From an uncultured Dokdonia sp. (GTDB lineage Bacteria; Bacteroidota; Bacteroidia; Flavobacteriales; Flavobacteriaceae), in assembly GCA_913060645.1 (NCBI GenBank), contig CAJXSW010000009.1, forward strand, positions 1-46,847: 46,847 nt of DNA, read 5' to 3'. A model generated the notes under the pieces. The model saw only the letters and a list, made by a program, of their open reading frames with translations, had not been told where the DNA came from and made no database searches. Shown here piece by piece: positions 6,200 to 21,491 of this stretch. A program made the position numbers and the translations under genes. Position 1 is the stretch's first letter. Each line of letters begins with the position of its first letter.

Positions 6200-6643
6200 T
6201 TATTTAAATAAAGTGCTCGATGCCTTATCAAATTCTTGCACCACCTCCAGCTGCGTAGTACTTTGATTAATCATTTGGGACATCATCCCAAGTGCTTGTT
6301 TTGTTTTTAAGATGGCTAGTTCTTCATTCTCATAATTAGTAGAAATACTAGCATCTACTTGAGTACTTTGCGTCCATAATACTAGTCCCACAATAACTGC
6401 AGCTGCAGCACTGGCTGCAAATCTATAAATAGATGTTGATCGTTGTTTTTGAGGTAGTACTATTGGTGCATCATATGTTTCCTTTGAGGCAACATTAAAT
6501 GCCGTAAACATGCTAGCATATTCTTCTAAGTGCGGCGCCACATGATCACTTGTAAAATAAGCTCTCAACTCTTGCTCTTCCTTAAGCGTAGTTGCCCCTT
6601 CAAAGTAACCATCTAGTAGCTTCTCTATATTATGAGATTCCAT
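6200..6643 (-). CDS. Putative anti-sigma factor, single-pass membrane protein
   Basis: A 147-residue protein with an N-terminal cytosolic region (MESHNIEKLLDGYFEGATTL...), one membrane segment (about residues 70-90, FAASAAAAVIVGLVLW) and a short periplasmic tail ending in QEFDKASSTLFK. The N-terminal helix pattern (LLDGYFEGxTTLxEEQELRxYF) is common in Bacteroidetes proteins encoded beside ECF sigma factors. Its start overlaps the end of the sigma gene by 14 bases, which implies translational coupling. The role as inhibitor of that sigma factor is inferred from position and topology; no zinc-binding anti-sigma motif is visible. Confidence 0.75.
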   Translation of the reverse strand: MESHNIEKLLDGYFEGATTLKEEQELRAYFTSDHVAPHLEEYASMFTAFNVASKETYDAPIVLPQKQRSTSIYRFAASAAAAVIVGLVLWTQSTQVDASISTNYENEELAILKTKQALGMMSQMINQSTTQLEVVQEFDKASSTLFK

Positions 6644-13226: not shown

Positions 13227-15665
13227 CTACAACTTAATCTGTAGCGTTGTATAAAAAGTAACCGGCTCTGCTGGAATAATTCCTGGGCCAGGATATCCTG
13301 TAGCACGTCTCGTGAAGTAAGACTCATCTAGCGCATTATTTAATCCAGCCTCTAATTTGAAACGCTTCCAAGTATATGCCGCCGAAATATCTAGTACTCC
13401 GTATGAAGGGATTGTCCCCTCTATACCACGTTGATTATCATTTACGTCTTGTGGAGCATTTGATGCGTCTGTAAATTGTTCTGTAAGGTATGTGTATTGT
13501 ACACTTCCTGTAAAATTTTTATATCCAAAATTCACTCCAGTTTTAAAGTTTACATCTGGAATAAACTCTACTTCATTACCCTCTACACCATTTCTATCAG
13601 AGTTTAAATATTCTGAACTTGTAAGCGCTAGGTTTGTAAAGAGCTTAAGTTTATAATCTGATTGTTCTTCAAAAAATGTGTTTTTTATATTCCAATCTGT
13701 AAAAAATTCTAAACCGTAAATAAATGCATCTCCTATGTTGCCACGACGTCTCTTTATACTATTATCTGTATCTTCAAAAAGCACTTCCCCTAAGCGGTCA
13801 TCATATCGCACACCAAACAAACTAAAATCATAAGCAAACTTATTATCTATACGACCCCTAGCTCCTAAGTCAACGGTAAATCCCTCCTCATCAGTTATAT
13901 TTTCATCAACTACAAATGATGGATTTGTAATTCTAATATCATTAAATGTAACAGAACGATAATTCTGGCTAAAATTCCCGTACAATTCAACTGCTGGAGA
14001 TAGATCATATGTTACGCCTGCACCTAACAGTAAAAAATCACGGTCAAAAACTCTATTATCTGCTATATCCTCATTTACAAGTAAATTACCCGCTAGGTCA
14101 ACCACCACATTATTAAAAAAACCTTCACTTTCTGTTCTGATTTGCTCATATCTAAAACCCGGAGTTACAGAAAGTCTGTTTGTCACATTGAAAATATTTT
14201 CCCCAAAAATTGCGAGATTTCTATTAGGAAAATCAAATTCAGCTTGACGCTCATAATTAGGAAACTGCACTGTAGCAAAACTAAAATCTGCATCTGCAGC
14301 CGTAGTTCCAGGTCCTTGCTGCTGACTGTTACTTGCATCATAATACTTACTTCCTATCAAGAAAACGGCATCCTTCTCTCCTATCTTATATCTCGTAAGC
14401 AAGCGTGCTTCTGCACCCCAGTTTGTAAAGTTATCTACAAGAAGTTCTCTAGGTTCTTCTAGATCATCTGGCTGTGATACTCTGTTTGTTCTAAAACCTA
14501 CGGCACTACGTTGTGCGTCTAGACCAAACACGTTTAAACTAAAATCTATATTATTACTAAAGGCGTGATCAAGGCGTAAAGAATATACTTTCCAGTCTAC
14601 ATCAAACCAGTTACGACCACGGTTACTAAAGTTAGGGTCTTCTATAAATTGAGCATCTGTAAGACCTCCAGCCTGTTTGGCTAGATAATTAAACAAGGTT
14701 AATTCTCCCGTTATTTTAGTATTCTCACTAAGCTGGTATGCTGCGTGCGCAAAGTAATTACGGCTATTAAACTGAGAGTTAGGTCTCCAGCCATCTCCTT
14801 CTTTGTAATTGAAATAAGTGTAATAACTGAATTTCCCTACCGTACCACTTAAACTATTAAACGAGGTAAGCAACCCATAAGAACCTGCTGTCTGTCTTGA
14901 TATCAATTCTATTTTTTTGTCTTTTACTGGCTCTCTAAATTTAAAATTTATCAATCCGCCAAACTGTGTTCCGTATTGCAATGATGCTGCTCCACGTACT
15001 ACTTGAATTTCTTTAAGAGCCTCTGCCGGTGGCGTGTAGTAACTCTCTGGATATCCAAGAACGTCTGCACTTATATCATAGTTATTCTGTCTAATATTAA
15101 AATTGGCAGAACGGTTAGGGTCTAACCCTCTTCCTCCAATGTTGAGTTGCAATCCAGCATCTCCATTTTCATAAATGTTGAGTCCTACTACCTGACTATA
15201 AATCTGTCTAGGTGCATTTGCAGCTAGGTTTGCCGTAAGTTGGTCTACAAGTACTACTTCACTCTTTTTACCAGCATAAATTGCTGTTCCCTCTACTTTT
15301 TTAAGTGAGCGTAAAGCAAAAATCTTCTCACGACGGCTTGTAAGCACCACTTCAGAAAGTGATTCCCCTAGCTCCTGAAGGGTATAATTCTTAGTAACAT
15401 TATTGGTAATTGAAACTTGATCTTCTACAAGCTCATAAGCAAAGCCAAAAACAACTACAGCGTAGTTTCCAGATGGCACATTATCAAATGTAAACGCACC
15501 AGAAGTATTTGTAGTAACCACCATATTTGCCTGGCGCACATACACCTCAACCTCTGGAATACCAGCACCAGTGGCGTCTGTTACTTTACCTGAAAATGTA
15601 AATTGTGCACTCATAGAAAGCGCACATAAAATCAATAACAACGTATTATAAACCTTTAATTTCAT
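13227..15665 (-). CDS. TonB-dependent outer-membrane receptor (iron/siderophore type)
   Basis: An 812-residue outer-membrane transporter. It has a signal peptide (MKLKVYNTLLLILCALSMSAQ), a carboxypeptidase-regulatory-like beta domain (about residues 20-100, FSGKVTDATGAGIPEVEVYV), a plug domain with EIQVVRGAASLQYGTQFGG, and a C-terminal 22-strand-type barrel ending in the aromatic-rich FYTTLQIKL. The plug and GGRGLDPNRS segment suggest a FecA-like ferric-chelate receptor; the ligand is not shown. The ATG at 15663-15665 is chosen over an upstream one because it begins the signal peptide. It overlaps the HTTM gene by 20 bases, so the two are translationally coupled within the iron operon. Confidence 0.93.
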   Translation of the reverse strand: MKLKVYNTLLLILCALSMSAQFTFSGKVTDATGAGIPEVEVYVRQANMVVTTNTSGAFTFDNVPSGNYAVVVFGFAYELVEDQVSITNNVTKNYTLQELGESLSEVVLTSRREKIFALRSLKKVEGTAIYAGKKSEVVLVDQLTANLAANAPRQIYSQVVGLNIYENGDAGLQLNIGGRGLDPNRSANFNIRQNNYDISADVLGYPESYYTPPAEALKEIQVVRGAASLQYGTQFGGLINFKFREPVKDKKIELISRQTAGSYGLLTSFNSLSGTVGKFSYYTYFNYKEGDGWRPNSQFNSRNYFAHAAYQLSENTKITGELTLFNYLAKQAGGLTDAQFIEDPNFSNRGRNWFDVDWKVYSLRLDHAFSNNIDFSLNVFGLDAQRSAVGFRTNRVSQPDDLEEPRELLVDNFTNWGAEARLLTRYKIGEKDAVFLIGSKYYDASNSQQQGPGTTAADADFSFATVQFPNYERQAEFDFPNRNLAIFGENIFNVTNRLSVTPGFRYEQIRTESEGFFNNVVVDLAGNLLVNEDIADNRVFDRDFLLLGAGVTYDLSPAVELYGNFSQNYRSVTFNDIRITNPSFVVDENITDEEGFTVDLGARGRIDNKFAYDFSLFGVRYDDRLGEVLFEDTDNSIKRRRGNIGDAFIYGLEFFTDWNIKNTFFEEQSDYKLKLFTNLALTSSEYLNSDRNGVEGNEVEFIPDVNFKTGVNFGYKNFTGSVQYTYLTEQFTDASNAPQDVNDNQRGIEGTIPSYGVLDISAAYTWKRFKLEAGLNNALDESYFTRRATGYPGPGIIPAEPVTFYTTLQIKL

Positions 15666-17025
15666 CTGTAAATGGTATAATCCAATTTTTATGAGCAAAA
15701 GAATCTTCTATTTGCGCGAGATCGGCTTTGGGATCAATATATGTGGTACTCAACCTTCCATTAAGAGCAACATAAGACTCTACGTAGACTTCTACCTCTT
15801 GATGCCCCTGCCCCTCAAAATGGTCGCGAAGATAGTGAGCATATTCTAAAATAAAGTCTGGCTGGAAACTCATTTGCTTTTCTTGCAGTGGCGTTAAGAA
15901 ATCTGTGTTATCTACATAAAATCGCTTTCCGCTTACGCCGTCTACTATTTTGAATTGTGCATAGCCAGATTTCTCCATAAGCATCACTCTCCATGAGAAT
16001 CTATAGCCCTCTTCTGTCCAGAATAACTCCCCAGGATACGCTAGGTAACGCCATGGCAATAGTAGTTGGACTGTAAAAAATATCGCTACAATAACTATAG
16101 AAGCCTTTGCTAGATTAAGGTTTCTAGACGCATAATGCTGCGCAGTTTCTAATAACTGTTGTGGATATTTTACCGCTTTCGCGAAAGCATAAATAATCTT
16201 TTTATGAAAACCTACATCAAAGAAAATCAACGCGCTCACTATCATCACGTACGGAAACATCCCGATAGGAAACAACACTCGTGTAAGCACATGGAAAATG
16301 ATGACCATGATAAATGCAAAAGGCCTCGACTTACGCCAGAGCAAGAAAAAAGGAATCAACAAATCATATCCCGCTCCAAACCAACTAAAGGCATAATGCA
16401 CCCATTCTTGACCCAACAAATCACCTATAAACGGAATATCAAATTTAGAAGGTAACCAGATTTTGAGCGGCATGGCCTTTACAAGCCAGTCACTATTAAG
16501 CTTTGCTAGTCCTGCATACACATACACTATCCCCAGCAGTAGTTTGATACTATCTATTGTCCAGCGAGGTACAAACTGGATGGGTGTAGCTGTACGCTTT
16601 CGCGAAAGCTGTAATGCATCAATCGAAAAATAAGAACCAGCAGGTATAAAAATCATCAAAAAGCTAAGCATGCTGATGAAGTAATAGTGATTGAGATACA
16701 TGGTTTTATCCATGAGCTCTATATATGTGAAGCTCAAAAAGAATATGATAATTGCCAGACGGTATTTATAACCTATGATTATCATGATCGTACTTAACGC
16801 ACATATCGCAAATAACAAGTAGGTATAATTCCCGAAAGGACGCACCCACTCAAAACCATAAAATGTAAAATGGAAGGATGGTGCAATATAGAATTTCTCA
16901 ATCCACCCGTGACTCCAGAATCTGATGAGACTGGCTAGCATGAGCAATCCAAAAGACACACGAAAGACCGCTAGTGGTGCGGCCTCTCTTTGTGTATTTA
17001 AATATCTTTTGACTTGCTGTATCAT
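15646..17025 (-). CDS. HTTM-domain multi-pass membrane protein
   Basis: A 459-residue inner-membrane protein with many hydrophobic segments in its first 330 residues and a soluble C-terminal part. The helical core matches HTTM (the transmembrane region shared with vitamin K-dependent gamma-carboxylase). It is coupled to the TonB receptor by overlap and begins 7 bases after the imelysin gene, pointing to a role in iron-chelate handling in the envelope. True carboxylase activity is not implied. The gene contains two copies of the iterated palindrome read in different frames, giving AFAKA (16174-16189) and LSRKR (16595-16610). Confidence 0.85.
   Translation of the reverse strand: MIQQVKRYLNTQREAAPLAVFRVSFGLLMLASLIRFWSHGWIEKFYIAPSFHFTFYGFEWVRPFGNYTYLLFAICALSTIMIIIGYKYRLAIIIFFLSFTYIELMDKTMYLNHYYFISMLSFLMIFIPAGSYFSIDALQLSRKRTATPIQFVPRWTIDSIKLLLGIVYVYAGLAKLNSDWLVKAMPLKIWLPSKFDIPFIGDLLGQEWVHYAFSWFGAGYDLLIPFFLLWRKSRPFAFIMVIIFHVLTRVLFPIGMFPYVMIVSALIFFDVGFHKKIIYAFAKAVKYPQQLLETAQHYASRNLNLAKASIVIVAIFFTVQLLLPWRYLAYPGELFWTEEGYRFSWRVMLMEKSGYAQFKIVDGVSGKRFYVDNTDFLTPLQEKQMSFQPDFILEYAHYLRDHFEGQGHQEVEVYVESYVALNGRLSTTYIDPKADLAQIEDSFAHKNWIIPFTDEIKGL
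16174..16189. repeat. Iterated palindrome copy 5 (intragenic)
   Basis: CGCTTTCGCGAAAGCA inside the HTTM gene, read on the minus strand as AFAKA. Confidence 0.92.
16595..16610. repeat. Iterated palindrome copy 6 (intragenic)
   Basis: CGCTTTCGCGAAAGCT inside the HTTM gene, read on the minus strand in a different frame as LSRKR. Confidence 0.92.
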
Positions 17026-17032
17026 CTAAGAT

Positions 17033-18154
17033 CTAATCTCCGTCTGCATCTGCAAAATCAATACTAATGCTCATTGCGCTTACCATATCTACTTTAAGAA
17101 GTGGTATAAGGCGTTGTACTTCATTATAAGACTCTAAAAATGTCGAAGGAGGATTTTGAGAAAGTTCGCTTTCAAAACTTCCCAATGCACTTACCGAAGC
17201 ACGTGCAACATCAAATTGCGAGTTTATGATCTCAATGAGATCTACGCCGTCTTTTATTGCATTAAGTTCATCAAGATAAGATGATAAGCTTTCGCCTTGA
17301 GCATTTGTATTATATGCTTTTCCATTAAAGAAGTCTTGAGTTGCATCTAGACCTACTAAAAATAATTCTTTAGAAAGGTTGCCTGCATACAGTGCTTCTA
17401 GATTGCCAACTTCTACATTACCAGAAAATACGCCTCCAGGAATTCCCATTTTACCAGCACGTAAGAACTTCTCGTAATAGAATATGTAATCATTTACAAA
17501 ACGATCTGTAGACGCCGTCGCCGATGCTCCATCGTTTTCTATAAATGCAGCTCTGTAAGAACCTTGCCACTCGCTTAATACTGATGCTGTAAGTTGCTTC
17601 ATATCTGCAACTACATCATTAAGATATTGCTTGTAAGCAGCTCCTTCTGTTCCATTATAAACTGCAAGAATCGCAGTCTCGTCTGCTCCTAAACCGTATA
17701 ATAAGTAATCAATTGCTGGAAAACCTTTGGCAGAGCGGTTAGATGATAGTCCAAAATCATAAGAACCGTTATCAATATTACTCTCTATTGTGGTAACATT
17801 TGCTGGGTAAATATTTACGTTAAGACGTAGGTTAACCGTTTCGGCTGGGCCTATTTCAAACATAGAAACTCGTTGCCATGTGGTGTAAGCGTCTAACCAT
17901 GCTGCACGCACTGCGGTAAGGTCACTAGCATCTGCAGTGAATGCTGCTGTTGCGCTTTCTAGCGTATTTACCTTTGCATTAAAGTCTATATAACCTGGCA
18001 CAATAATATTATCTGCCCAGTTAGTAAGCATCGCGCTACGATCAAAGTTACCTGTGTTTACTGTTCCACTATCGTCTGTTGTAAGGGTTGTATCATCACT
18101 ACCACATGCATAAAAGAACAAAGCAATTGCTATAATTCCAAAAATCTTTTTCAT
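17033..18154 (-). CDS. Imelysin-family lipoprotein (IrpA-like)
   Basis: A 373-residue lipoprotein with lipobox FFYAC, lipidated Cys17. The acidic residues right after it (CGSDD) resemble the Bacteroidetes surface-export signal. Two helical-bundle halves typical of imelysin/IrpA proteins follow. The family motif GxHxxE is replaced by GFPAID (residues 144-149), with His changed to Pro and Glu to Asp, so metal binding at this site may be altered. It is third in the order haem-binding, DUF4856, imelysin, HTTM, TonB receptor. The likely role is capture or presentation of iron or haem at the cell surface; ligand unproven. Confidence 0.9.
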   Translation of the reverse strand: MKKIFGIIAIALFFYACGSDDTTLTTDDSGTVNTGNFDRSAMLTNWADNIIVPGYIDFNAKVNTLESATAAFTADASDLTAVRAAWLDAYTTWQRVSMFEIGPAETVNLRLNVNIYPANVTTIESNIDNGSYDFGLSSNRSAKGFPAIDYLLYGLGADETAILAVYNGTEGAAYKQYLNDVVADMKQLTASVLSEWQGSYRAAFIENDGASATASTDRFVNDYIFYYEKFLRAGKMGIPGGVFSGNVEVGNLEALYAGNLSKELFLVGLDATQDFFNGKAYNTNAQGESLSSYLDELNAIKDGVDLIEIINSQFDVARASVSALGSFESELSQNPPSTFLESYNEVQRLIPLLKVDMVSAMSISIDFADADGD

Positions 18155-18180
18155 AGTTAATTCTTCTTTTTACCACCAAA

Positions 18181-18200
18181 AGGGAGCCAATGGGCTCCCT
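18181..18200 (-). terminator. Intra-operon hairpin between DUF4856 and imelysin genes
   Basis: A perfect 8-bp stem AGGGAGCC / GGCTCCCT with a four-base loop in a 67-base spacer, followed on the minus strand by TTTTGG. The short T run suggests attenuation or mRNA processing rather than full termination. Confidence 0.55.
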
Positions 18201-18221
18201 GTGAGTAGTTGTTATTTCTTA

Positions 18222-19430
18222 TTAGCTTCCTGCTTGCTCTAATGTGAAGTCAAAACGATCTGTTATCGTAGTTGAAATTAAATCAAGGGTTGCTGGTGTA
18301 ACTTCCCAAAGTCCGTTACCAGCTGTTAGTTGGCTTACGATTCCTTGTACTTCTTCTCTAGATAAGTATGGTGCATTTGTATCAGGGTTACGTGTAAATT
18401 GCAAACTATATACAAATCCAAAACCTTCTGATAGATCATGAAATGCAGTTCCAAAATTACCTGCCTCTATAGCATTTTTACCTTGTTGTAAGTAGTAAAC
18501 TGCACGAATCCCAACTACCTCAGAGATTTTTGTTCTTAAGATTTCTGCTTGCTCATCTCTTAATTCGTAATCCTTTGCAACGATTGCTGCACGACCTAGT
18601 TTAAAAGCATCAAATACATCTTGAGCGATACCTGCAAAGTCTTCATCATCCTCTACACGACCTAAATATCTGTTTAAAAAGAAATCATCTGATCCTATAG
18701 TAGCATTTGCATTTGCTGCATCTGCACTGTTACCAAAAAGGTACCCGAAAGCCTCATCCCACTTGTGCTCCATGTCTGTATAAACTGCTCCTTCTACAAG
18801 TACATCTGTATCATTATCTGCTACGTTAGTACCAGCGTCTAGTACGTTTGTACCTAAGTAATTGTTAAGCATTTGATCTACCATAAGTGATCCTATAAGA
18901 CTCTTTGCAACTACTTGGTTATATTCAAAACCATTTGCTGCAACGTAACGAGTGCTTTCTCCATCTGCTATTTGACCAGCAACACCTATGGAAGCTTGTG
19001 TATTTTGAGCTGGAAACACTTCGTTTATTTGTGTTGTGAAGTGTGACTCTATATATGCTTTGATTTCAGCAGAGGCTGCTGCATTTGTAGAAAAGTAATC
19101 TGTAGAAGCAGCTACTTTACTTTTTACACTCTTGTCAGACGCATTTAAATCTGCATCCTCAAAAGGGTTATTCTCATTTGCAAACATGTCTGTTAATGAT
19201 GCTATAGAAGCATTATCAAAATCACTCATCTCGCTCACAATTTCTTGTGCCATTGCGATGCGTGTTGTTTGTCCTGAGAAGCTTACAGTGCTTTCCCCAT
19301 TTCTTTCAAAAGAATAAGTTGCTGGTGCAACTACTTCAATTTCTTGTTCGATTACTGGGCTATCGTCATCTTCACAAGATGTAAAGGCGATTGTCGTAAT
19401 TGCTAGTGCTATTGGTAAGAAGTTTTTCAT
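18222..19430 (-). CDS. DUF4856 lipoprotein of the iron operon
   Basis: A 402-residue lipoprotein: MKNFLPIALAITTIAFTSC, lipidated Cys19, followed at once by acidic EDDD, consistent with surface export. The rest matches DUF4856 proteins: YSFERNGESTVSFSGQTTRIAM near the start, then a helical bundle with several Asp/Glu clusters. DUF4856 genes commonly adjoin imelysin genes in Bacteroidetes, as here. It is the first gene of its operon, with a well-formed promoter (TTG-N20-TATTTTTG, 19474-19504) and an upstream 14-bp element shared with the haem-binding gene. Function presumed in iron or haem acquisition; biochemical role unknown. Confidence 0.87.
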   Translation of the reverse strand: MKNFLPIALAITTIAFTSCEDDDSPVIEQEIEVVAPATYSFERNGESTVSFSGQTTRIAMAQEIVSEMSDFDNASIASLTDMFANENNPFEDADLNASDKSVKSKVAASTDYFSTNAAASAEIKAYIESHFTTQINEVFPAQNTQASIGVAGQIADGESTRYVAANGFEYNQVVAKSLIGSLMVDQMLNNYLGTNVLDAGTNVADNDTDVLVEGAVYTDMEHKWDEAFGYLFGNSADAANANATIGSDDFFLNRYLGRVEDDEDFAGIAQDVFDAFKLGRAAIVAKDYELRDEQAEILRTKISEVVGIRAVYYLQQGKNAIEAGNFGTAFHDLSEGFGFVYSLQFTRNPDTNAPYLSREEVQGIVSQLTAGNGLWEVTPATLDLISTTITDRFDFTLEQAGS

Positions 19431-19473
19431 TTTTATTTAGACTTAATATAAATAGTGAATTTGTTTACGACGG

Positions 19474-19504
19474 CAAAAATAATAGTCATTTCTCGTTCCA
19501 GCAA
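19474..19504 (-). promoter_or_regulatory. Promoter of the DUF4856-imelysin-HTTM-TonB operon
   Basis: The -33 TTG (complement of 19502-19504), a 20-base spacer and -7 TATTTTTG (19474-19481) match the Bacteroidetes consensus. The 12-base stretch around the -7 box (plus strand CGGCAAAAATAA) is repeated exactly at the haem-binding gene's promoter. Confidence 0.75.
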
Positions 19505-19505
19505 G

Positions 19506-19519
19506 CTTATTTAGAATAA
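19506..19519 (-). promoter_or_regulatory. Shared 14-bp element, copy A (candidate iron-responsive operator)
   Basis: TTATTCTAAATAAG on the minus strand, one base upstream of the -33 element. The same 14-mer occurs at 20094-20107. The TTATT...AATAA symmetry resembles Fur-type operators, but the regulator is not identified. Confidence 0.5.
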
Positions 19520-19558
19520 ATAAGAATAAGAATGTGTTAAAATTAATTTTTGCTAGTT

Positions 19559-20026
19559 TTACTGTACCACCATCTCGCTCTGTATCTGGGCTCGAGCTTC
19601 TTTTGCCCAGTTTTCTAAAAGCTCTTTTTCTTCGTCTGTTAAGTCTCCATGAAGGAACGTATATGATTTTAGAGGCATTTCTCCCTCTTCAACTTCTTCT
19701 ATGAGCTCATCTAGTTTATGGTCTTTTTTCTTGAGGGAATAGCTATTCCAATCTTCTACATCAAAATGTCTTTTACCATCTTTAATGTGATCGTTTACCC
19801 AATAAGATAAAGGTGCAATATCTGCATACCAAGGATATGTGGTTACACCACTATGACAATCATAACAATTTTTGCTGAATATCGCTCTTACCTCTGCAGG
19901 CATATTAGTTTCTGTTTCAAATGCATCTATAGCGAGATAATTGCCTTCTTGCTTATCTGGTCTAATAAATTGAATAACTACGAGCGCTATAAGTGCAATA
20001 ATCAAAAAATATCGAAGAATCTTCAT
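19559..20026 (-). CDS. Membrane-anchored haem-binding domain protein
   Basis: A 155-residue protein with an N-terminal membrane anchor (MKILRYFLIIALIALVVIQF) and a c-type haem motif CYDCH at residues 54-58, then SGVTTYPWYADIAP, typical of the haem-binding domain (haem_bd) family. It would be anchored in the inner membrane facing the periplasm. The start at 20024-20026 is preferred: an ATG at 20051-20053 overlaps the predicted -7 box and so would lie outside the transcript. It is upstream of the DUF4856 operon and shares its promoter design. Electron transfer or haem sensing linked to iron uptake is inferred. Confidence 0.88.
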   Translation of the reverse strand: MKILRYFLIIALIALVVIQFIRPDKQEGNYLAIDAFETETNMPAEVRAIFSKNCYDCHSGVTTYPWYADIAPLSYWVNDHIKDGKRHFDVEDWNSYSLKKKDHKLDELIEEVEEGEMPLKSYTFLHGDLTDEEKELLENWAKEARAQIQSEMVVQ

Positions 20027-20050
20027 ACTATGGTTGTTTGTATTATGCGG

Positions 20051-20081
20051 CAAAAATAATACGTAGTTGAAAAAGAGACAA
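20051..20081 (-). promoter_or_regulatory. Promoter of the haem-binding gene
   Basis: The -33 TTG (complement of 20079-20081), a 20-base spacer and -7 TATTTTTG (20051-20058). Spacing and -7 context are identical to the DUF4856 operon promoter. Confidence 0.75.
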
Positions 20082-20093
20082 CCTTATCTTTAA

Positions 20094-20107
20094 TTATTCT
20101 AAATAAG
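20094..20107 (+). promoter_or_regulatory. Shared 14-bp element, copy B
   Basis: TTATTCTAAATAAG on the plus strand, 12 bases beyond the -33 box of the haem-binding gene and in the opposite orientation to copy A. It forms part of a longer inverted repeat TTATTCT-N11-AGAATAA. Confidence 0.5.
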
Positions 20108-20137
20108 TTTAAGAATAATAAAATTTACTTAACATAC

Positions 20138-20153
20138 GCTTTCGCGAAAGCAA
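20138..20153. repeat. Iterated palindrome copy 7
   Basis: CGCTTTCGCGAAAGCA, directly beyond the T tract of the DEAD-box helicase terminator. Confidence 0.92.
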
Positions 20154-20156
20154 AAA

Positions 20157-20186
20157 AAACCCCTTATCCATATAGATAAGAGGTTT
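20157..20186 (-). terminator. Terminator of DEAD-box helicase gene 1
   Basis: Stem AAACC-x-CTTATC / GATAAG-x-GGTTT with one C-A mismatch and a six-base loop, followed on the minus strand by a T run leading into palindrome copy 7. Confidence 0.8.
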
Positions 20187-20207
20187 CATATTTATTAAGG
20201 AAAACTA

Positions 20208-21491
20208 TTACCGTCTTCTTGAGTTTTTGTTTCTACTATCAGAACTTTTACTTCCTCCAGTACTTTTTCCTCGTGCTCCACCATTACGTGAGTTACGACG
20301 TCCTTGCTGGTGTCTTGCTTTATTTTCGGCAGCTTCTTTTTTGATTTGCGCGAGTGTATCTGTTGGCTGAAAACCTTCTAATACTTCGCTATGTAGCTTT
20401 TCTCCTAAGAGTTTTTCTATTCCTCTTACGTATTCTACCTCATCTACACCTACTAGTGATATTGCTTGACCACTTGCGCCTGCCCTACCAGTACGACCTA
20501 TACGGTGTACATAATCTTCTGGCACATTAGGAAGCTCATAGTTAATTACATAAGGTAATAAAGGGATATCAAGACCACGAGCTGCGATATCTGTTGCTAC
20601 AAGTACGCGTACTTTCCCACTCTTAAAACCAGCAAGTGCTTTCACTCTTGCGTTTTGAGTTTTATTACCGTGTATTGCTGCAGATGAGATTCCGTCTTTT
20701 TCAAGTTTTTCAGAAAGTCTATTTGCACCGTGCTTTGTTCTTGTAAATACAAGTACTTGATCCCAGTTTCCTTCTCTTATAAATTTGATAAGCATTTCTG
20801 TTTTACGAGACTTATCTACTCTATAAGATTTTTGATCTACTTTCTCTGCAGTAGTGTTTTCTGGTGTTGCTTCTACTAATACAGGATTAGTAAGAATGCT
20901 ACTAGCAAACTTCTTAATGTCCGTATTAAAGGTTGCACTAAAAAGGAGGTTCTGCCTTTTCGCCGGAACCATTTTTAATACTTTCTTTATATCATGTATA
21001 AAGCCCATATCAAGCATACGGTCTGCTTCATCAAGTACTAGAAACTCTACATCAGAAAGGCTTAATAAGCCTTGGTTCTGTAAATCTAATAATCTACCAG
21101 GAGTGGCAACTAGAATATCTACTCCTTGACGTAAGGTGCGTACTTGTGGGTTTTGGTTCACTCCTCCAAAGATGACCATAGACTTGATATCTACGTACTT
21201 ACTGTACTCTAATACATTCTCTTGTATTTGTGCAGCAAGTTCTCTTGTAGGCGTAAGCACAAGTGCTCTTATCTTACGGCGTCCTTGTCTTGGGTTATTT
21301 ATGAGCCTATGGATCATAGGCAATGTGAATCCTGCAGTTTTTCCTGTTCCGGTTTGTGCACTTGCAAGAACATCTTTGCCTTGAAGTACTACTGGAATTG
21401 CTTTTTGTTGAATAGGTGATGGCGTTGTATAGCCTTTTTCGCTCACAGCTTTGAGCAGGGCATCAGAGAGCCCTAAAGATTTAAATGACAT
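20208..21491 (-). CDS. DEAD-box RNA helicase (RhlE-like)
   Basis: A 427-residue ATP-dependent RNA helicase. The Q motif region is [12 protein letters not shown], Walker A is AQTGTGKT, motif Ia is PTRELAAQ, motif II is [13 protein letters not shown], motif III is SAT and motif VI is [10 protein letters not shown]. The C-terminus is a basic, Arg/Ser/Gly-rich tail, as in RhlE-type helicases that unwind structured RNA in ribosome assembly and mRNA decay. Length fits the family. A second DEAD-box gene lies at 25868-27226, so the organism has at least two paralogues here. Substrate RNAs unknown. Confidence 0.95.

Follow-up and report, generated by a model that had tools for sequence, protein, structure and literature searches.

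Two neighbouring transcription units in the genome of an uncultured Dokdonia sp. raise the question of whether they are controlled together and, if so, by which kind of regulator. The window, that is, the whole stretch of DNA analysed here, is 46,847 nucleotides long and constitutes an entire contig (C9) of an assembly of 3.1 Mb in 219 contigs that is 89% complete; among named relatives, those closest to its DUF4856 protein belong to Dokdonia. The two units lie in tandem on the minus strand. One is a gene with a Haem_bd domain (19559..20026; PF14376, E 5.2e-45), whose product contains a CxxCH motif and whose start is best placed at the ATG at 20026. The other consists of genes for a DUF4856 protein (18222..19430; Pfam PF16148, E 6e-147), an imelysin (Peptidase_M75; 17033..18154; PF09375), an HTTM/vitamin K-dependent gamma-carboxylase-like (VKGC) membrane protein (15646..17025; PF05090 and PF22777) and a TonB-dependent receptor (13227..15698; PF00593 and PF13715), which likely form one operon with the DUF4856 gene as its first member. 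The first-pass annotation of this DNA, made from the sequence, had described similar promoters and a shared 14-bp element upstream of the two units, and had suggested common control.

The promoters do share their spacing, as had been claimed. Each has a TTG at -33 followed, after 20 nucleotides, by the -7 element TATTTTTG: on the minus strand, the two elements occupy 19502..19504 and 19474..19481 in the operon promoter and 20079..20081 and 20051..20058 in the haem gene promoter. Both promoters can be written as TTG-N20-TATTTTTGCCG. This longer string occurs twice in the window against 0.03 expected, and three times in the whole assembly, where two of the occurrences are at these promoters and a backward-read control also gives three. 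The CCG that follows TATTTTTG in both promoters is probably a coincidental likeness, since relatives further removed, L012 for one, do not keep it.

The 14-mer is also found where it had been reported, at 19506-19519 on the minus strand and at 20094-20107 on the plus strand, and it has three exact copies in the whole assembly, the third being on contig C30. However, the pair alone is suggestive rather than decisive. When three mismatches are allowed, the window holds 18 matches to the 14-mer where 17.8 would be expected by chance. It is also rich in repeated 14-mers generally, with 596 pairs (mean of 30 shuffles, 24), and 16 pairs lie no more than 600 bp apart (compared with 0.37).

What is decisive is that both 14-mers are arms of a 23-bp palindrome that has the same offset from both promoters and is kept in orthologues. 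The palindrome, idealised as TTATTTAGATTNAATCTAAATAA, is imperfect; it was recognised by reading a first set of 30 DUF4856 loci, with that of the window included. Upstream of the operon, it forms box U (19507..19529, minus strand; TTATTCTTATTTATTCTAAATAA in the sense of transcription), which has counterparts in orthologues and of which the 14-mer is the right arm. Upstream of the haem gene, the corresponding box U (20084..20106, minus strand; TTATTTAGAATAATTAAAGATAA in the sense of transcription) has the 14-mer as its left arm, and it is found in 9 of the 11 loci, our own included, in which the Haem_bd gene adjoins DUF4856; no haem box was found in the other two (L021 and L022). This difference in arms explains the opposite orientation of the two 14-mers and the shift of 10 bp between them. 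In both units, box U ends at the same position, exactly 25 bp upstream of TATTTTTG, with 2 nt separating it from the -33 TTG. The 14-mers alone stand at different distances from the two promoters, whereas the whole palindromes are in register. The operon has a further palindrome, box D, between the -7 element and the ATG (19433..19455, minus strand). The shared upstream element is thus real, but the earlier description was incomplete in that it covered one arm of the palindrome and missed box D. Boxes U and D align as a single motif, which comes in two inner variants, AGAATNATTCT and AGATTNAATCT. We considered the 14-mer itself as the functional unit and rejected this, as it is an arm of the longer palindrome. 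Simpler searches were less informative: a window scan with TTTAGAATNATTCTAAA was of no use, and a core-only pattern with three mismatches gave 77 matches in the own genome against 63 for the control, which is not a clear enrichment.

The palindrome is conserved well beyond this contig. In the first 30 loci, L030 and L032 gave no match and L031 only a weak one. From 32 boxes, taken from DUF4856 and Haem_bd loci only, we constructed a sequence-only model (R1) and a 23-bp weight matrix, and considered a larger set of named DUF4856 loci, the top 80 among 579, whose labels are mostly Flavobacteriaceae and Saprospiraceae, with three Balneola or Balneolaceae. A box scoring at least 8 bits lies within 200 bp upstream of DUF4856 in 77 of the 80 (no upstream box was found in L105, L126 and L140), whereas the other 257,316 bp of these loci contain 12 matches. 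When seven loci whose contigs have the same lengths as training contigs are set aside, 70 of 73 have a box, and 60 of 73 have one at 18 bits. Because it is conserved upstream of DUF4856 across loci, the motif goes beyond chance. In many loci of Aquimarina and Kordia and in some others (within L102-L160), an extra box is seen about 20-110 bp past the end of the DUF4856 match, perhaps marking an internal promoter of the next gene.

The element is not confined to this locus. A scan of 14 genomes with R1, in which the 150 top candidates per genome were scored, yielded 34 sites with E<=0.02 outside the DUF4856/Haem_bd locus. Of these off-locus sites, 27 are at iron genes and five have no clear iron link, the classes being assigned by reading the neighbouring genes, with Pfam applied to a selection. 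Nine sites are at feoAB, 15 at TonB receptors and two at DUF6607/ankyrin genes; one site precedes a small gene followed by a ferritin gene, one is at an imelysin gene and one at a pair of genes for a nitroreductase and a fur paralogue. The other five are on contig C30 of the own genome, on contig C7 of G018, 820 bp before a catalase gene in G044, at nqrA in G012 and 3' of a ferritin gene in G034. The first-pass annotation had proposed to look for the element at other iron genes, and in relatives it is there, at feoAB in 9 of the 14 genomes scanned and at TonB receptors. FeoB was confirmed by Pfam in one locus and recognised by its high sequence similarity in the others, and FeoA was read as an ORF beside the box in L066.

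A further site at an iron gene was looked for in the own assembly and not found. The feoB copy there is partial, being truncated where contig C149 ends (a protein search matched up to base 6365 of 6404), and so the feo promoter lies outside the assembly. A query with the feo promoter of a relative (40 of 806 candidates scored) did not find it and returned only a repeated palindrome, GCTTTCGCGAAAGC, which is also present at about 20140-20160, upstream of the haem promoter, and which accounts for 42 short matches of that query in the own genome. Contig C30 holds the sole strong extra site of this genome. It carries a terminase-like gene and a 19-bit box (L003 and L064) and, judged by eye, looks phage-derived; the third copy of the 14-mer is on the same contig (L003, 1501-1514), just upstream of a phage-repressor-like ORF.

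Some sites in relatives deserve mention in their own right. In G011, a near-perfect box (L216, 1801-1823) precedes a nitroreductase gene that is followed by a second full Fur gene, which is thus a candidate for an autoregulated paralogue. In two genomes (L071 and L219), a box lies about 100 bp before nqrA (Na+-NQR). In L050, L052, L210, L217 and L224, the box is shared by DUF6607 and ankyrin-repeat genes, which in three of these loci are divergent from a TonB receptor gene; on the evidence of the box, these may be counted as candidate uncharacterised genes of iron metabolism.

The arrangement of the boxes around the promoter can be described in the larger set, where the locus counts are not independent owing to shared ancestry and the floating box D in the same loci serves as an internal comparison. 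Two boxes are present in 51 of the 80 loci, with TAnnTTTG between them in 49 of the 51. In these 49, the distance from the end of box U to TAnnTTTG is exactly 25 bp in 40 and 24-26 bp in 45, and box D starts 2-18 bp past TAnnTTTG. The 26 single-box loci comprise 6 with the box upstream at 25-26 bp, 14 with the box 2-9 bp after TAnnTTTG and 6 with neither arrangement; in Saprospiraceae, 10 of 11 single-box loci have the downstream box only. Elsewhere, eight gene-directed off-locus promoters (L049, L055, L065, L211, L212, L213, L218 and L223) have a box 24-26 bp before TAnnTTTG; they come from 30 further loci in which distances of 20-30 bp were examined, and two further matches were left uncounted, L219 being the DUF4856/Haem_bd locus of G012 and L221 facing away from the catalase gene. 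In the nine feo promoters, the box begins 0-2 nt after TAnnTTTG, and in the DUF6607/TonB intergenic regions examined it is inside the spacer between -33 and -7. The boxes abut or overlap promoters, being upstream of -33, within the spacer or just after -7, and the variety of positions from which a promoter could be blocked speaks for a repressor. Within this layout, only the rigid upstream slot stands out as odd. A fixed helical phasing or looping between boxes, hinted at by spacings of 61 or 71-74 bp in the first loci, was rejected because the spacing holds no phase: in the 51 two-box loci, 48 spacings are at 59-74 bp, with 67-69 common, and the outliers are 33, 48 and 86.

Which protein, then, would act at these sites? 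The sequences show the palindromes, where they lie, how well they are conserved and that they recur at other iron genes; Fur as the binding protein, repression on binding and iron as the signal are what we infer. The boxes are most likely Fur operators of a 23-bp Bacteroidota type that confer iron-dependent repression on both units, and common control by a Fur-like regulator, which had already been suspected, is the best-supported prediction given the conservation, the regulon and the core shared with Riemerella. When iron is sufficient, Fe-Fur would sit on box U, immediately before the -33 element, and at the DUF4856 operon on box D just past -7 as well, so that RNA polymerase would be blocked and both the Haem_bd gene and the DUF4856-imelysin-HTTM-TonB operon would be off. 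When iron is short, Fur would be released and both units transcribed.

The distribution of Fur is consistent with this. The own genome (G000) encodes a Fur protein on contig C5, and a main FUR-family protein with a strong match is found in 22 of the 22 relatives searched. Three of them (G021, G030 and G037) show no other FUR-family match and have boxes. The Fur protein of G004 aligns with solved Fur proteins, with the HDH motif included. The main fur gene lies between a relA/spoT-like gene and purA in the loci read by eye, and in four genomes no strong box was found around it. In F. psychrophilum, efforts at fur deletion were unsuccessful (PMC9331221). A second, weaker FUR-family protein adjoins heavy-metal genes in L083 and L084, again by eye.

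Published work on Riemerella anatipestifer bears directly on the assignment. In the results of PMC5609570, a Fur box ATTTAGAATTATTCTAAAT is predicted and four promoters bind Fur in EMSA, whereas for the putative Fur box the abstract prints an E. coli-like sequence, GATAATGATAATCATTATC, instead. With the 23-bp matrix, ATTTAGAATTATTCTAAAT is in the top 0.006% of the 19-mers of the window. Six of the 11 published R. anatipestifer boxes score at least 12 and two score below zero, one of them being the sprT box, which is from an EMSA-positive promoter and scores -13.8. The E. coli-type GATAATGATAATCATTATC scores -30, and the gammaproteobacterial GATAAT-type consensus is not matched. The Fur-regulated table of PMC5609570 includes RAYM_09779-09794 (TonB, VKGC, imelysin and hypothetical genes), of which RAYM_09794 would be DUF4856 judging from the gene order; Table 5 there gives no box for this operon. 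The -Fe/+Fe ratios of these genes are 2.1-3.1 in the wild type and 2.7-3.1 in delta-fur, and the delta-fur/wild type ratios with iron are 1.36-1.93 (these may be log2 values); for the imelysin gene, Table 4 gives an iron response of 3.07 in the wild type and 2.92 in the fur mutant. The ratios support Fur only in part, as iron still acts without fur. Since the iron response of the operon is as large without fur, Fur cannot be the sole iron regulator in R. anatipestifer. In a second paper on this species, Fur with Mn is reported to bind a TonB receptor promoter, and the E. coli-type GATAATGATAATCATTATC is given as the putative box (PMC7976709).

The surviving iron response leads to the question of whether the two slots have different occupants or different jobs. 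One explanation, which we consider very unlikely, is that a second iron-responsive factor acts on box U and Fur on box D. The model for such a factor is MliR, a MerR-like iron activator of Bizionia argentinensis, whose deletion lowers, among others, one imelysin-like gene and the gene of a TonB siderophore receptor (PMC9478572). A division of this kind would fit the precision of box U, which lies at exactly 25 bp in 40 of 49 two-box loci, as compared with the range of 2 to 18 bp over which box D floats, and also the retained iron response of delta-fur (PMC5609570); however, boxes U and D are one aligned motif, the nine feo promoters have the box just after -7, the single-box Saprospiraceae loci have the downstream box only in 10 of 11 cases, and the MliR passages of PMC9478572 name no binding site. 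It is conceivable, though unlikely, that Fur itself does different jobs at the two slots of Bacteroidota iron promoters: the downstream slot would be a plain roadblock, free to float, and the upstream slot would be held at exactly 25 bp from -7 by contact of the bound protein with RNA polymerase, either as a low-iron activator or as a repressor that traps the polymerase. If true, such an arrangement might account for the iron response that Riemerella retains after the loss of fur.

The remaining alternatives concern the protein, the nucleic acid and chance. Binding of the boxes by a metal repressor of the DtxR/MntR type in place of Fur is very improbable in our judgement. A DtxR-family gene is present in 21 of 22 genomes, is about 8-9 kb from feoAB in three genomes compared, and in one case encodes a protein with a FeoA-like C-terminal domain. 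However, the dtxR promoter has no strong box (the best in those loci has 12.1 bits and is about 1 kb off), the published EMSA used Fur, and in G016 the DtxR gene is followed, by eye, by one for a Zn/Mn-type substrate-binding protein, which suggests another metal; G037, which is 99% complete, has boxes but no DtxR match, a weak argument as it concerns one genome only. Box D lies downstream of -7 and immediately precedes the start codon, which invites the idea that it acts in the RNA leader on translation rather than as DNA. We give this hardly any credence, as box D shares its motif with an upstream box that the promoter should not transcribe, and Rfam at gathering scores gives no match in 18000-21000. 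A chance likeness of two AT-rich promoters served by one sigma factor would accord with the background of 14-mers in the window, but it is contradicted by the box at 77 of 80 orthologous loci and by the 27 of 34 off-locus sites at iron genes, and is extremely improbable.

The iron-linked operon also includes the HTTM protein (15646-17025, minus strand), whose residues 8-453 can be aligned with solved chains of gamma-carboxylase (GGCX). The GGCX segment GVKKLDADW is aligned with GLAKLNSDW of the HTTM protein, and the lysine K218, which we take to be the catalytic base of GGCX, appears from this alignment to be kept. A carboxylase-like enzyme that is linked to iron and adjoins imelysin would be unusual, and the operon ties an HTTM/gamma-carboxylase-like enzyme to predicted iron control.

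The predicted regulation is itself of a known kind. What is new is the haem gene as a predicted target, the 23-bp extent of the element and the two-slot layout, rigid upstream and floating downstream, which is seen in many members of the phylum Bacteroidota. Iron control in Bacteroidota is poorly mapped, and the 23-bp operator is now a testable candidate, with a small predicted regulon of feoAB, TonB receptors, DUF6607, ferritin, Haem_bd and DUF4856-imelysin-HTTM-TonB.

The element can be compared with several known operators. The DtxR box is a 19-mer in which TTAG and CTAA are further apart than here; DtxR/IdeR/MntR operators and this element are alike in being AT-rich inverted repeats with TTAG and CTAA. 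The classic Fur 7-1-7 box is TGATAATNATTATCA; it and GATAATGATAATCATTATC have the inverted repeat of the 7-1-7 type in common with the element, but the bases are different. In full-text searches of the main texts of a limited collection of papers, the palindrome cores led only to PMC5609570, and among the papers listed for DUF4856, imelysin, HTTM and gamma-carboxylase none beyond it was seen to treat the regulation of this operon; no paper there matched all terms for IdeR/DtxR in Bacteroidetes or for imelysin with gamma-carboxylase. MliR resembles the regulator proposed here in its effect on genes of a marine member of the Bacteroidetes (one imelysin-like, one for a TonB receptor and one FeoB-associated), but it differs in being an activator (PMC9478572). 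The closest system is that of Riemerella (PMC5609570): its Fur-regulated table contains the TonB/VKGC/imelysin/hypothetical set in the same gene order, the 19-bp core ATTTAGAATTATTCTAAAT corresponds to positions 3-21 of the 23-bp element, and the RAYM_00450 box is one base off the Haem_bd box of L012. It differs in that its Table 4 names no Haem_bd gene, whereas here the element extends over 23 bp, has two inner variants and occupies two slots around the promoter.
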